Positions 4,051 through 47,011 of a stretch of 47,011 nt of DNA are shown here, one piece after another. The notes below the pieces were generated by a model. That model did no database searches. It had not been told where the DNA came from and saw nothing but the letters and a program-made list of their open reading frames with translations. Position numbers and translations under genes: made by a program. The stretch covers positions 1 to 47,011 of the forward strand of contig JAJTWZ010000031.1 of the NCBI GenBank assembly GCA_021463145.1. The letters run 5' to 3'. The first letter of the stretch is position 1; each line of letters opens with the position of its first letter. This DNA comes from Blastocatellia bacterium (GTDB taxonomy: Bacteria; Acidobacteriota; Blastocatellia; UBA7656; JADIYM01).

Positions 4051-4067
4051 CCGCACATTAAGTGCGG
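4051..4067. promoter_or_regulatory. Perfect 6-bp inverted repeat (possible operator or leader hairpin)
   Basis: CCGCAC-ATTAA-GTGCGG is a perfect hairpin 36 nt upstream of ATG 4104, in the 250-bp region between two divergent genes. There is no T-run, so it is not a standard terminator. It may be a regulator site or a 5'-leader hairpin of the downstream gene. Confidence 0.35.
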
Positions 4068-4103
4068 CGGTTTCCGACGCCCCATTCGTCGAGTTCAACC
4101 CGC

Positions 4104-7064
4104 ATGCCATTTTCGAATCGTTCTGTCGCTCTGGGAGCGCTGTTCCTCGTCGTCTCCTACGGACTACCGGTCGTAGCACTAGCTGGCCAGGGACCGCGCC
4201 TTTCGAAACGCATCGTCGAGCCAAGCCCGGTCTCCGGTCAGGATGGCGAGGATCCAGACAGCCGGTGGCTGACGGCGCTCTATCTCGAGCTCAGCGCCGG
4301 CGGCGCGTTTGCCCTGGAAGAGAGCGAGTTGCTGCGACGCTGGGCATCGGGAGCCGAACTGGATCGGCTGGAGCTGGCCGTTCTCCGGTCCCGCGTCCTG
4401 CTGCGCGCGTTCGTGCAGCATGTCGATCTGACGGAGGACGACTCGAAGCTGCTCGAGGCCTACCAACTCGCAACTGCGCGCCGCTCTACCGCGATTCTCG
4501 ATCAGAAGATGCGCCTGCTCGCGGAACGAGAACATGCAGCCAAGGCGGCTGCCCCTCGGGAGCCAGCCGCCCCGCCGCCGAACGATACGTGCGCCGGTGC
4601 CGTTGTCATTCCAGGATCGGGGCCGTTTCCCGCCATATCGGCCGTGACCGCCGACATCACCGATGCAACGAGCGCTGGCGACCCGGCCGCGCCGGCCTGT
4701 CAGACCAGCGTTTCGCGTTCGACCTGGTACAGCTTCACGCCAACCACGACCGCCGTGTACACGATTTCGACGTGCGCGGATGCCGGCACGGCAACGACGG
4801 TCGATGACACGGTCATTGGCGTATACACGTCGACCGGCGGCTGTTCAGGCCCGTTTACCGCCGTGCCGACGACGGCAAACACGAACGGATGCGACGACGA
4901 CTCGTGCGCCAGCGAGGAGAACCAGGCCGAGTTGATTACGGAGTTGGCTGGAGGGACGACGTACTACGTCGTCGTGTGGCTATTCGGGAGTCCGGCTCCG
5001 ACCGCCGGAAACACCGCGGTGCAACTCGAAGTGTCGCAGGCTCCGATACCGTCGTCGGACGTATGTTCGGGCGCCGCGCCGCTCACACTTTCACAACCCG
5101 TTGCCGGCTCGACGCTCTCCGCGGCCAACGATTATGTTCTCGCACCGGCTGCCGCCTGTTTTACGGGAGTCGGGCAGACGGTCTCGTCGTCCGTTGGCCG
5201 CGACGTCGTCTACAGCTTCACACCGGCTGTATCCGGGGCGTACTCGTTCCGGATCACGAACGTGAGCACGGCAGCGAACGCGGTCCTGTATCTTTCGACG
5301 GTATGCCCGGCGTCGTCGCCCGGATCGCCAGGAACGGTGACCAGTTGCGCGAACGCGGCGAATCGAACGCCCGGCGGAACATCGGAGGAGTCGATGTGCG
5401 CCTCGCTTGCGGCAGGCGTGCCGGTCTTCGTGTTCGTTGACGAAGCCACCATGACGGTCGGCACGACGTTCACGATCGAAGTAACCGCGTGCACGCTGGA
5501 AGCCGAGCCGAACGGGACGTCCGGGACGGCCAGCACCCGGTCGTGCGGGATCGAGGGCGCTCTTTCGCCGTCGGCCGACGCGGACTTCTATTCTCTGGGC
5601 GCGACGTCGGCCGGGCAGCGCGTCTTCGCGACGGTCGACGGTGTGGCTGGAAACTCGTCGGACTTCGATCTTCGCGTCACTACATCGACGGACACGCTCG
5701 AGTACGATGACGCCGACAACGATGCACCCCTCGGACCGTTCGCGCCGAATGTGTCAGGCACGACACTGACGGCGGCATCGGCATTCCTGCGAGTCAGCCA
5801 CGTCAATCCGGGCACGCAGGCCGAACCGTACAGGGTCTACTCGGTCATCCAGCCGCCGAGCGCGCTGGCTTCGGCCGAGTCGGAGCCGAACGGCTCCACG
5901 GCCCAGGCTAACTCCGCCGGGTCCAACTATTTCTCCGGTGCACTGTCAGGACCTTCGCCCTCGACCGATGTCGACGTATTTCAGACACCGGCGGCCGCCG
6001 GCGATTTGCTCTTCATAGGTCTCGACGGCGATCCGACTCGCGCGAATACGCCGCTGAACGCAAGACTCGAGCTGCTCGATTCCACTGGCGCCGTCCTGGT
6101 GAGCGCCAACGACGGCAATTCGAGCTCGAACACCACTTCCGGAGCCGCGTCGCTCACGGCGACGGCGCCACGATCGCCGGGAGAGTCGATCGTCCTCCGC
6201 GTGACCGTATCGGGCACGTACTTCGTGCGCGTATCGGCGGGGTCGGCGTCGGCGACGACGGCCGCCGGCGACTATCTGGTGTCGATCGCGAAGAACTGCC
6301 AGACCGGAGGTGGAGGCGCCGGATCCGGTCCCGGCGCCGACGGGCCCGGTTTGTACGCGCCCTCGACAGGCGCCTTCTTTCTCCGAAACTCCAGCTCCAA
6401 TGGCCCGGCCGATATCGTGTTCACCTACGGAGCTGCGGGTTCGGGTCTAGTCCCTCTTACCGGTGACTGGAACGGCGACGGCGTGGACACGCCCGGCCTG
6501 TACAGTCCGGCGACTGGCGCCTTCTTCCTTCGTAACGCCAACTCGGGCGGCGCGGCGGACCTCGTGTTCACGTTCGGAGCCGGAGGCGCGGGCTTCGTCG
6601 CAATTACCGGTGACTGGGACGGAAACGGGACCGACACGATCGGTCTGTACCAGCCTGCGACCGGTGCATTCTTCCTGAAGGACACGAACGCCAGCGGCAA
6701 CGCCGACATCGTTTTCACGTTCGGTGCGGGCGGCCAGGGATTCGTTCCTGTCGACGGCGACTGGGACGGAAACGGAACCGACACTATCGGCCTCTACGTG
6801 CCCTCCAGCGGAGTCTTCTTTCTCCGAAACGCCAATGCCGGCGGTCCGGCCGATCTCGCATTCACGTTCGGAGCCGGTGGCCAGGGATTCGTGCCGGTCG
6901 CGGGTGACTGGGATGGCAATGGCGCCGACGCGATCGGAATCTATGCGCCTTCCACGGGTGCGTTCTTCCTTCGCAACACGAATACGAACGGTGCGGCCGA
7001 CATCGTGTTCACGTTCGGCGCTGGAAATGCAACTCCGCTGGCCGGTGACTGGGATGGCCTGTAG
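4104..7064 (+). CDS. Secreted PPC-domain protein with C-terminal FG-GAP-like repeats
   Basis: 986 residues from ATG 4104, where a clear signal peptide begins (MPFSNRSVALGALFLVVSYG, cleavage near ALAGQ); the upstream GTG 4062 would add 14 serine/arginine-rich residues. The N-terminal ~150 residues are helical and charged. The middle (about 155-720) contains several beta-sandwich domains resembling bacterial pre-peptidase C-terminal (PPC) domains, with motifs such as SEPNGSTAQANS and TYYVVVW. From about 746 to the end come five near-identical 49-residue repeats carrying DWDGNGTD, a calcium-loop-like motif of FG-GAP/VCBS repeats. Likely extracellular or surface-bound adhesive or structural protein. 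It lies 48 nt upstream of the DUF1800 gene and probably shares its transcript. Confidence 0.75.
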   Translation: MPFSNRSVALGALFLVVSYGLPVVALAGQGPRLSKRIVEPSPVSGQDGEDPDSRWLTALYLELSAGGAFALEESELLRRWASGAELDRLELAVLRSRVLLRAFVQHVDLTEDDSKLLEAYQLATARRSTAILDQKMRLLAEREHAAKAAAPREPAAPPPNDTCAGAVVIPGSGPFPAISAVTADITDATSAGDPAAPACQTSVSRSTWYSFTPTTTAVYTISTCADAGTATTVDDTVIGVYTSTGGCSGPFTAVPTTANTNGCDDDSCASEENQAELITELAGGTTYYVVVWLFGSPAPTAGNTAVQLEVSQAPIPSSDVCSGAAPLTLSQPVAGSTLSAANDYVLAPAAACFTGVGQTVSSSVGRDVVYSFTPAVSGAYSFRITNVSTAANAVLYLSTVCPASSPGSPGTVTSCANAANRTPGGTSEESMCASLAAGVPVFVFVDEATMTVGTTFTIEVTACTLEAEPNGTSGTASTRSCGIEGALSPSADADFYSLGATSAGQRVFATVDGVAGNSSDFDLRVTTSTDTLEYDDADNDAPLGPFAPNVSGTTLTAASAFLRVSHVNPGTQAEPYRVYSVIQPPSALASAESEPNGSTAQANSAGSNYFSGALSGPSPSTDVDVFQTPAAAGDLLFIGLDGDPTRANTPLNARLELLDSTGAVLVSANDGNSSSNTTSGAASLTATAPRSPGESIVLRVTVSGTYFVRVSAGSASATTAAGDYLVSIAKNCQTGGGGAGSGPGADGPGLYAPSTGAFFLRNSSSNGPADIVFTYGAAGSGLVPLTGDWNGDGVDTPGLYSPATGAFFLRNANSGGAADLVFTFGAGGAGFVAITGDWDGNGTDTIGLYQPATGAFFLKDTNASGNADIVFTFGAGGQGFVPVDGDWDGNGTDTIGLYVPSSGVFFLRNANAGGPADLAFTFGAGGQGFVPVAGDWDGNGADAIGIYAPSTGAFFLRNTNTNGAADIVFTFGAGNATPLAGDWDGL
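6341..7061 (+). repeat. Five tandem ~147-bp coding repeats
   Basis: Five copies of a 49-codon unit, each with GLYxPxTGAFFLRN, ADIVFTFGAG and GDWDGNGTD-like segments. The last copy is shortened and ends the protein at DWDGL. DNA similarity between units is high enough to allow copy-number change by recombination. Confidence 0.85.
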
Positions 7065-46069: not shown

Positions 46070-46441
46070 GCGCCGTGGAGGGTAGAGCGGACCGTGAATT
46101 GGTGCGCGCCTCGTGTTGGAGCAGGCCGAGGCCTGGAGCGTGCTCTTGGGTAGAACGCGCCGCGAGGTACGGCGCGCCGTGGAATTCGATCAAAGGTCAG
46201 GAACGCTGATTGGCATATCGTCCCTCTCGAGCTTCATCGTAGCTTGGTGGACTGGCGTACGCGTGTCGAACTGGGAGGGAGTCCGTCCGGATTCGACAGT
46301 TTCCGGACGTCCGCTACTGAAGAGCGCCGGCGCGAAAGTACCGTTGCCCACGATCGGAAGGCCCGCACTCGGCCTCGAAGAACCAGGCCGTGAAACTCCG
46401 CGACCGCGGAGCGGGCGATAGCGCCGGAGCAACGGTGCTTC

Positions 46442-46479
46442 CTGTCAACGTGGAAATGCCCTGTCAACGTGGAAATGCC
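46442..46479 (+). repeat. Tandem 19-bp direct repeat, two copies
   Basis: CTGTCAACGTGGAAATGCC occurs at 46442-46460 and again immediately at 46461-46479 with no mismatch. It is not part of a frame with coding character. Confidence 0.9.
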
Positions 46480-46513
46480 TCGAGTTTGGCCTTCCGATTG
46501 GCAAACGGGTCCG

Positions 46514-46530
46514 CGACCGCGGAGCGGTCG
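46514..46530. repeat. 17-bp palindrome CGACCGC-GGA-GCGGTCG
   Basis: A perfect 7-bp stem with a 3-nt loop. Further copies lie at 46608-46624 (identical) and 46847-46863 (loop GAA), and a weaker one at 46401-46417. It looks like a REP-type unit. Confidence 0.8.
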
Positions 46531-46543
46531 ATATAATAGCCGT

Positions 46544-46626
46544 GGGTCGCGCGCAGCGAGTACAGCGAGCAAGCGCGCGACCCGCGGAACCGCCCGCCGC
46601 GTCCTACCGACCGCGGAGCGGTCGCA
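46544..46626. repeat. Composite palindromic element, copy 1
   Basis: An 11-bp inverted repeat GGGTCGCGCGC/GCGCGCGACCC (46544-46554 with 46573-46583) encloses an 18-nt loop. It is followed by about 25 nt of conserved linker (GCGGAACCGCCCGCCGCGTC) and the 17-bp palindrome at 46608. The same order is repeated at 46773. Confidence 0.85.
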
Positions 46627-46772
46627 TCGTTCGTCCCAATGCGCGTCGGTGGCGGCGCAATCGACGTTGTGTCCCGGCAAGGAGGCACCTCTCATCGGCC
46701 GAAGACCGAGATTCGTACGGTTCGAACTGCGATCCCAATGCGACCGGGTCCGCGGTCGGCGCGGTTGGGCAT

Positions 46773-46865
46773 GCGGTTCCGCGGGTCGCGCGCGGCGAGC
46801 GCTGCGGGCAAGCGCGCGACCCGCGGAACCGCCCGCCGCGTCGTACCGACCGCGAAGCGGTCGCA
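46773..46865. repeat. Composite palindromic element, copy 2
   Basis: A perfect 21-bp inverted repeat (46773-46793 with 46812-46832) encloses an 18-nt loop that keeps the pattern of copy 1 (GCGAG...GCAA). The linker and 17-bp palindrome follow as in copy 1, with only two or three differences. The longer stem shows copy 1 has lost or never had the outer 10 bp on its left side. Confidence 0.85.
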
Positions 46866-47011
46866 TTGTCTGCACCACGATGAACTCGGGGGAATTGCGT
46901 CATACCGCAATCGATCCGACTGCGGAACGATCGAACCTCCGCTTGCAAACTCCAACCCAGGGTGGATTGGATCGGGCCGCGGCGAGCTGCGGGTTTGACG
47001 GTCTGTGCGAC

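Follow-up and report, generated by a model that had tools for sequence, protein, structure and literature searches.

A REPIN-like family of three-hairpin repeats in a Blastocatellia bacterium, probably moved in trans by a small HUH/Y1 transposase akin to IS200

At the right end of a 47,011-nucleotide stretch of DNA from a Blastocatellia bacterium (contig JAJTWZ010000031.1, hereafter the window) lies a repeat unit built of three hairpins, which we consider likely to belong to a REPIN-like, non-autonomous repeat family that depends for its movement on a small, IS200-like HUH/Y1 transposase acting in trans and bearing the TnpAY1 subclass 1.2 signature. The family sits on both sides of the transposase gene that probably moves it, and the mobility of the window's own copies is argued from the dispersal of the family.

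A direct repeat of 91 nt (46540-46630 and 46779-46869, starts 239 nt apart) is 90% identical between its two copies. The original prediction had described two like-ordered modules of ~85 bp here, each a long inverted repeat (11 and 21 bp) with an 18-nt loop, followed by a fixed linker and a CGACCGC/GCGGTCG palindrome. The common order, both 18-nt loops, the linker and the palindrome (CGACCGC-GRA-GCGGTCG at 46608-46624 in copy 1 and 46847-46863 in copy 2) are all present, as are perfect 21-nt arms in copy 2 (46773-46793 and 46812-46832), while the arms of copy 1 measure 15 nt (46540-46554 and 46573-46587, 93% complementary) and the module of 85 bp does not correspond to the natural unit, which has three hairpins and a full length of ~115-120 nt. 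Single-stranded DNA folds here are stable (z = -3.7 and -6.3). Further small palindromes lie at 46401-46417 (degenerate) and 46514-46530; the former does stand alone, as had been proposed for the palindrome, but the latter forms the left-hand hairpin of the first unit, which therefore runs from ~46510 to 46628; its boundaries were set by comparing genomic contexts, 15 of them distinct on the left and 12 on the right. The right end thus contains the following features:

46401..46417, + strand: solo degenerate small hairpin CGACCGCGGAGCGGGCG, from the repeat search
46510..46628, + strand: complete three-hairpin unit of subfamily I (TCCG - hp1 - ATAG - hp2 - linker - hp3 - CAT), from the match to covariance model R1 and the genome flanks
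46514..46530, + strand: hp1, the left small hairpin, CGACCGC-GGA-GCGGTCG, from sequence
46536..46539, + strand: ATAG foot of the long hairpin, TAG being common to units beside homologous tnpA genes
46540..46587, + strand: hp2, the long hairpin, with 15-nt arms and an 18-nt loop, from inverted-repeat search and fold
46588..46607, + strand: linker from hp2 to hp3, from copy comparison
46608..46624, + strand: hp3, the right small hairpin, CGACCGC-GGA-GCGGTCG, on the same strand as hp1, from copy comparison
46741..46758, - strand: degenerate hp3 of an inverted partner unit, ~116 nt past the first hp3 (doublet arrangement), like RE-RE at contigs C109, C103, C11, C33 and others
46773..46832, + strand: fold-back long hairpin with perfect 21-nt arms, both of right-hand type, a rearranged hp2, from the fold and comparison with complete copies
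46847..46863, + strand: hp3 of the rearranged second module, with a GAA loop, from sequence

With filters off, the covariance model R1 scored 37.8 bits at 46514-46630, and the rest of the last kilobase did not exceed 15.4 bits. The second module (46779-46869), predicted to be another full copy, is a rearranged partial unit that retains hp3 and the linker and has no hp1 of its own; its stem reaches 21 bp because the left arm originates in an inverted unit, on that unit's right-hand side, the degenerate hairpin of which lies at 46741-46758. Ten other places have the whole 331-bp arrangement at 82-90% identity over at least 250 bp, and the 331-bp stretch has 100 BLAST matches in the genome. Two tandem repeats were also seen in the window, a perfect 19-bp repeat just ahead of the unit (46441-46479, two copies of CCTGTCAACGTGGAAATGC) and a 147-nt repeat (6553-7018, 3.2 copies, 73% match) inside the ORF at 4062-7064.

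The genome (G000; 173 contigs, 5.28 Mb) contains 408 matches (211 + 197) to the palindrome CGACCGCGNAGCGGTCG at up to one mismatch, compared with two (1 + 1) for a reversed control. This count, which had been suggested as the way to tell a mobile family from a module occurring only here, reveals a dispersed, high-copy family and rules out a purely local duplication; with the fold scores, it also excludes a chance origin. Among the matches listed, 78 of 100 palindromes (93 of them on contigs of known length) lie less than 1 kb from a contig end, and the window itself ends in such a contig-end array; repeat arrays may chiefly account for the fragmented state of such genomes.

The anatomy of the unit was read from 56 segments covering 126 kb of the same genome, which hold 161 small hairpins and 47 complete units. 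In each unit, hp1 is followed by a few nucleotides ending in ATAG, the long hairpin hp2, a linker and hp3, giving a core of 105-113 nt. Two subfamilies could be distinguished, type I with 31 units (left end TCCG-CGACCGCGGAGCGGTCG) and type II with 16 (left end TGACCGCGAAGCGGTCA). In distinct, non-redundant contexts (15 left and 12 right for type I, 11 and 6 for type II), type I conservation drops to background beyond TCCGC|hp1 and hp3|GCA; for type II, a few positions are still common to some left contexts. Fifteen unrelated left flanks with exact ends speak against a local satellite, in which recombination or template switching between palindromes would amplify the repeats without a transposase and tnpA would be an embedded bystander, an explanation that we regard as unlikely even though the fold-back rearrangement seen in the second module of the window is of the kind that favours it.

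Some copies depart from this plan. Ten carry a ~100-nt insert (TTCCCCACACGCC...TTTCATAGCA) between ATAG and the hp2 stem (contigs C5, C8, C11, C161, C103, C121, C84, C157 and C42), a nested repeat apparently placed at the TAG foot, which could mark an insertion or cleavage point. On C68, C2, C8, C13 and C84 we found truncated tandem forms, in which hp1 and half of hp2 are followed by another hp1, joined in the hp2 loop; this suggests template switching at the long hairpin.

A search with the PF01797 profile detected two Y1_Tnp genes in the genome (84 and 89 bits), one on contig C119 and one on C128, so that the window holds no transposase, as the original prediction had said, and a Y1_Tnp gene with the same repeat at both ends, which it had proposed to look for, does exist elsewhere in the genome:

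L062:2344-2793: tnpA of C119, with type I units on both sides pointing to the gene
L063:2189-2638: tnpA of C128, with type II units on both sides pointing to the gene

Both genes are single-copy, each encoding a protein of 150 aa, and the two proteins are 51% identical. That each gene is flanked by its own subfamily is a second observation that weighs against the satellite explanation. Both proteins pass the cut-off (55 bits) of the IS200 model NF033573 with 62 and 63.5 bits, and phmmer matched the TnpA of ISHp608 (E = 0.0026). An H-x-H motif, WQ and Y---Q--HH are conserved across six aligned proteins, our two included. Judged from its sequence, the pair carries the TnpAY1 subclass 1.2 signature (Y---Q--HH), an assignment made by motif. 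A class-2 RAYT identity was ruled out by Y---Q--HH (in place of Y---NP) and by the REP_Tyr model NF047646, on which the C128 protein reaches 27 bits against a cut-off of 80 and the C119 protein is not among the matches listed. Elsewhere in the genome, a 31-aa C-terminal tnpA remnant lies beside a weak unit match (locus L215, G000:C144:18300-20000) and is perhaps a decayed third transposase locus.

We examined 112 distinct tnpA loci, comprising those retrieved from genome searches, two Bacteroidota plasmids, and L122 and L123. Y---Q--HH is present at 106 of the 112. Among named homologues, the nearest come from two MAGs, one of Acidobacteria gp4 and one of Chthoniobacteraceae. Among the 110 loci with enough flank, 77 have an inverted match between upstream and downstream flanks above the 99th percentile of 1000 mismatched pairs (median 64.5, compared with 19.5 for mismatched pairs), none of 300 pseudo-sites in the window passed the same test, and 33 loci have no significant inverted flanks. 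The test was also passed in direct orientation at 34 of the 110, as palindromes can. A search grammar of a small hairpin, TAGC[CG] and hp2, in outward-in orientation, matched at 57 of 112 loci upstream and 56 of 112 downstream, compared with 17 and 10 in the opposite orientation and 2 of 224 in shuffled sequence; TAGC is itself part of this grammar. Some relatives have GTAG at hp2 where the window unit has ATAG.

In 97 grammar matches with an hp3, a GNA loop occurs in 77 hp1 and 72 hp3 hairpins, and in both for 62, while TNC is found in only 3 of 194 small hairpins. GNA triloops form very stable DNA hairpins. Since GNA prevails and TNC is rare, hp1 and hp3 are in direct orientation, as they are in the window unit, where both lie on one strand. 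Within units, hp1 and hp3 resemble each other over the 11-nt core (0.71, compared with 0.54 shuffled, 0/1000) and the 5-nt 3' tail (0.40, compared with 0.27, 0/1000), and their 5' 4-mers are weakly alike (0.32, compared with 0.27, 9/1000). Between the upstream and downstream units of a locus, hairpin cores are identical at 0.86 and 0.80, compared with 0.59 and 0.53 in shuffled sets (n=30).

The direct hairpins bear on a possible but less favoured explanation, an IS200/IS605-type miniature resembling a PATE, in which hp1 would be the left-end and hp3 the right-end hairpin of a deleted IS200-type element that is cut out as a ~110-nt circle of single-stranded DNA, and the doublets described below would be secondary. 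A PATE combines near-terminal palindromes with a lack of inverted terminal repeats and of target duplication; our units have near-terminal direct hairpins and sharp ends, and the TnpA scores as IS200. PATEs of Haloquadratum are described as IS605 derivatives with palindromes close to their termini (PMC3119063). Against this explanation, tnpA is found not between hp1 and hp3 but beyond the unit, with a convergent unit on either side, and its copies are few and divergent, unlike those of an IS.

The distance from the end of hp3 to the tnpA start has a median of 24 nt (n=53), and that to the stop a median of 9 nt (n=44), with 28 of 44 at 30 nt or less. This abutment on the stop, together with the stable folds, would suit RNA or DNA structures that persist because they serve a function (as mRNA 3' ends, as terminators, or as sites for gyrase or IHF) and not because they spread as mobile DNA. 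We think this most improbable, as the hairpin sequence is specific to each tnpA and not to a host factor, and no Rfam family reaches its gathering score in the window.

Searches among plasmids returned five records, none of them cyanobacterial. On the Persicobacter sp. JZB09 plasmid CP012861, full units flank tnpA on both sides, and R1 has 16 matches in 632 kb. The Bernardetia plasmid has small hairpins near tnpA at two loci (L204, L219) and no R1 match in the record; not every subclass-1.2-like locus, then, has this anatomy. At both loci the small hairpins are followed by ...TTTGTAG and hp2 is missing, which may represent a less complex version of the unit.

R1 was built from an alignment of 62 of 88 extracted units, with the structure given by hand (RNAalifold placed helix 2 one column off). 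In the alignment, 79.9% of cells are paired, compared with 57.4% after shuffling (0/500) and at most 51.5% in slid controls, and the covariation score is 0.543 compared with 0.190 (0/500), supporting three helices, with the covariation arising partly by construction because the rows were chosen by the hairpin grammar. The independent part of the structural support comes from R1 matches at loci outside the training rows: at E <=0.1, the model has 158 matches across the window and 69 such loci taken together, some of these loci sharing genomes with training rows. An anatomy conserved across divergent hairpin sequences is a further point against the satellite explanation.

We scored 39 related genomes with R1, up to 112 candidates in each, so that the counts per genome are floors. 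All 26 genomes with a tnpA match contain units (from at least 3 to at least 112), the tnpA matches of G004 and G033 being weak, compared with 5 of the 13 genomes without one; the other eight have none. This co-occurrence gives a Fisher p = 2.1e-5, a value that is too small because the genomes are related, and it argues against a satellite, whereas the units found without a detected tnpA (G022, at least 2; G023, at least 10; G026, at least 35; G034, at least 25; G035, at least 19) argue for one. G023, G026, G034 and G035 have at most one Y1_Tnp match each, which may reflect lost or overlooked transposases or a different amplifier. Other Y1 enzymes were rejected as partners, since G037, with 11 PF01797 matches, and G020, with one strong match, have no units.

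Within genus g16, G021 and G025 have at least 58 and 62 units and one tnpA each, and both units and tnpA are absent from G017 and G037. Two convergent genes of G025 enclose an array of ~2 kb (L205:9704-11778). The site is empty in G017, where it measures 66 nt, and in G037, where it measures 195 nt, while G021 carries a shorter array of its own at that site. The array is a lineage-specific gain or loss; such lineage-specific presence counts against structures kept for function, and the position between convergent genes counts in their favour. Arrays in g16 grow locally, most units sitting in a few of them, and local amplification therefore matters in this genus; here neighbouring units are mainly tandem (19 tandem, 7 convergent, 4 divergent; 58 of 87 matches typed), an observation in G021 and G025 that favours a satellite.

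In G315, an acidobacterial MAG, neighbours within 200 nt are convergent in 33 cases and never divergent or tandem, with a median gap of 7 nt (114 of 131 matches typed). The genome of the window has eight convergent pairs, one tandem and one divergent among its 47 complete units; six of the convergent pairs are type I-type II with gaps of 67-76 nt, one is II-I (144 nt) and one I-I (119 nt). The Persicobacter plasmid has five convergent and one divergent (13 of 16 typed), most convergent gaps being 35 nt, and at the tnpA loci, with 138 of 158 matches typed, 17 pairs converge, 16 are tandem and 10 diverge. Convergent doublets therefore dominate in two sets, G315 and the genome of the window, which is a further point against a PATE-like origin, and a tnpA between two convergent cognate units is the doublet plan with cargo.

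The original prediction had compared the repeats to REP/BIME or REPIN families mobilised by RAYT transposases. As far as the available text of the published accounts goes (PMC3116915, PMC6006769, PMC8266576), REPIN/BIME systems with class-2 RAYT (TnpA-REP) likewise have high-copy short palindromes, inverted doublets and a low-copy Y1 transposase flanked by its own repeats. The likeness ends at the details: the unit here has three hairpins instead of one, its small hairpins are direct within the unit, no GT[AG]G stands at hp1 or hp3 and the foot in the window is ATAG, and the transposase is Y---Q--HH and not the Y---NP of a class-2 RAYT.

The transposases instead share Y---Q--HH, WQ, a length of ~150 aa, low copy number and low identity between the copies of one genome with TnpAY1 subclass 1.2. 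In the accessible part of the survey by Quentin et al. 2018, this subclass is of low copy, is entered as 'no' for REP, is generally without IS200 end structures and occurs mainly in Cyanobacteria and Bacteroidetes (PMC6006769). By contrast, most loci in the window's phylum, one in a Chthoniobacteraceae MAG and one on a Bacteroidota plasmid carry flanking units; from these sequences we claim that the published 'no REP' does not apply here and that our loci would extend it. IS200/IS605 elements (subclass 1.1) and PATEs share the HUH/Y1 enzyme, same-strand end hairpins and short transposase-free derivatives, but here the units on the two sides of tnpA are inverted, where those elements would have a single left and a single right hairpin, and tnpA has not multiplied (two genes, 51% identical, plus the 31-aa remnant), the repeats far outnumbering it. 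TIRYT also have inverted repeats flanking a Y1 transposase, with examples in Acidobacteria (PMC3733652); they differ in that 20 of 26 fall in the longer subclass 2.1, with Y---LNP, in the accessible survey text (PMC6006769), and in that their inverted repeats are not described there as hairpin triples. Our search of the open-access literature, with subscription papers mostly outside it, found no paper on repeats of subclass 1.2 TnpA.

For the favoured explanation, trans mobilisation by the IS200-like TnpA, we propose a working model. The unit comprises a short hp1 with a GNA loop, a spacer of ~5-10 nt that ends in TAG, the long hp2, a ~20-nt linker, and a short hp3, again with a GNA loop and on the strand of hp1. 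In analogy to IS608 and TnpA-REP, TnpA would bind the folded single strand through the hairpins plus the TAG foot, and its tyrosine (Y115 in the C119 protein) would cut next to hp1 and hp3. TnpA-REP binds the REP strand only, and GTAG helps recognition and the choice of cut site, according to the available text (PMC8266576). The strand would then be transferred at replication forks, again as in IS608 and TnpA-REP, and we infer single-strand transposition from this analogy. Recombination, or template switching from one hairpin to another, might then lengthen or rearrange the arrays.

On balance, we lean towards viewing this as a second, separately arisen REP/transposase partnership, drawn from the IS200-like class-1 branch of Y1 enzymes, in which a subclass 1.2 TnpA would be paired with a three-hairpin, TAG-footed single-stranded DNA substrate arranged in convergent doublets. 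The partnership would extend across much of one bacterial phylum and is found also in a Chthoniobacteraceae MAG and on a Bacteroidota plasmid. It would have escaped notice because searches for REPs asked for GT[AG]G and units of one hairpin. The units provide a candidate substrate, assay sequence and role for subclass 1.2 TnpA. The many divergent transposase/hairpin pairs, some with several per genome, could be used to test how Y1 enzymes tell hairpins apart and whether REP-type symbioses arose more than once.
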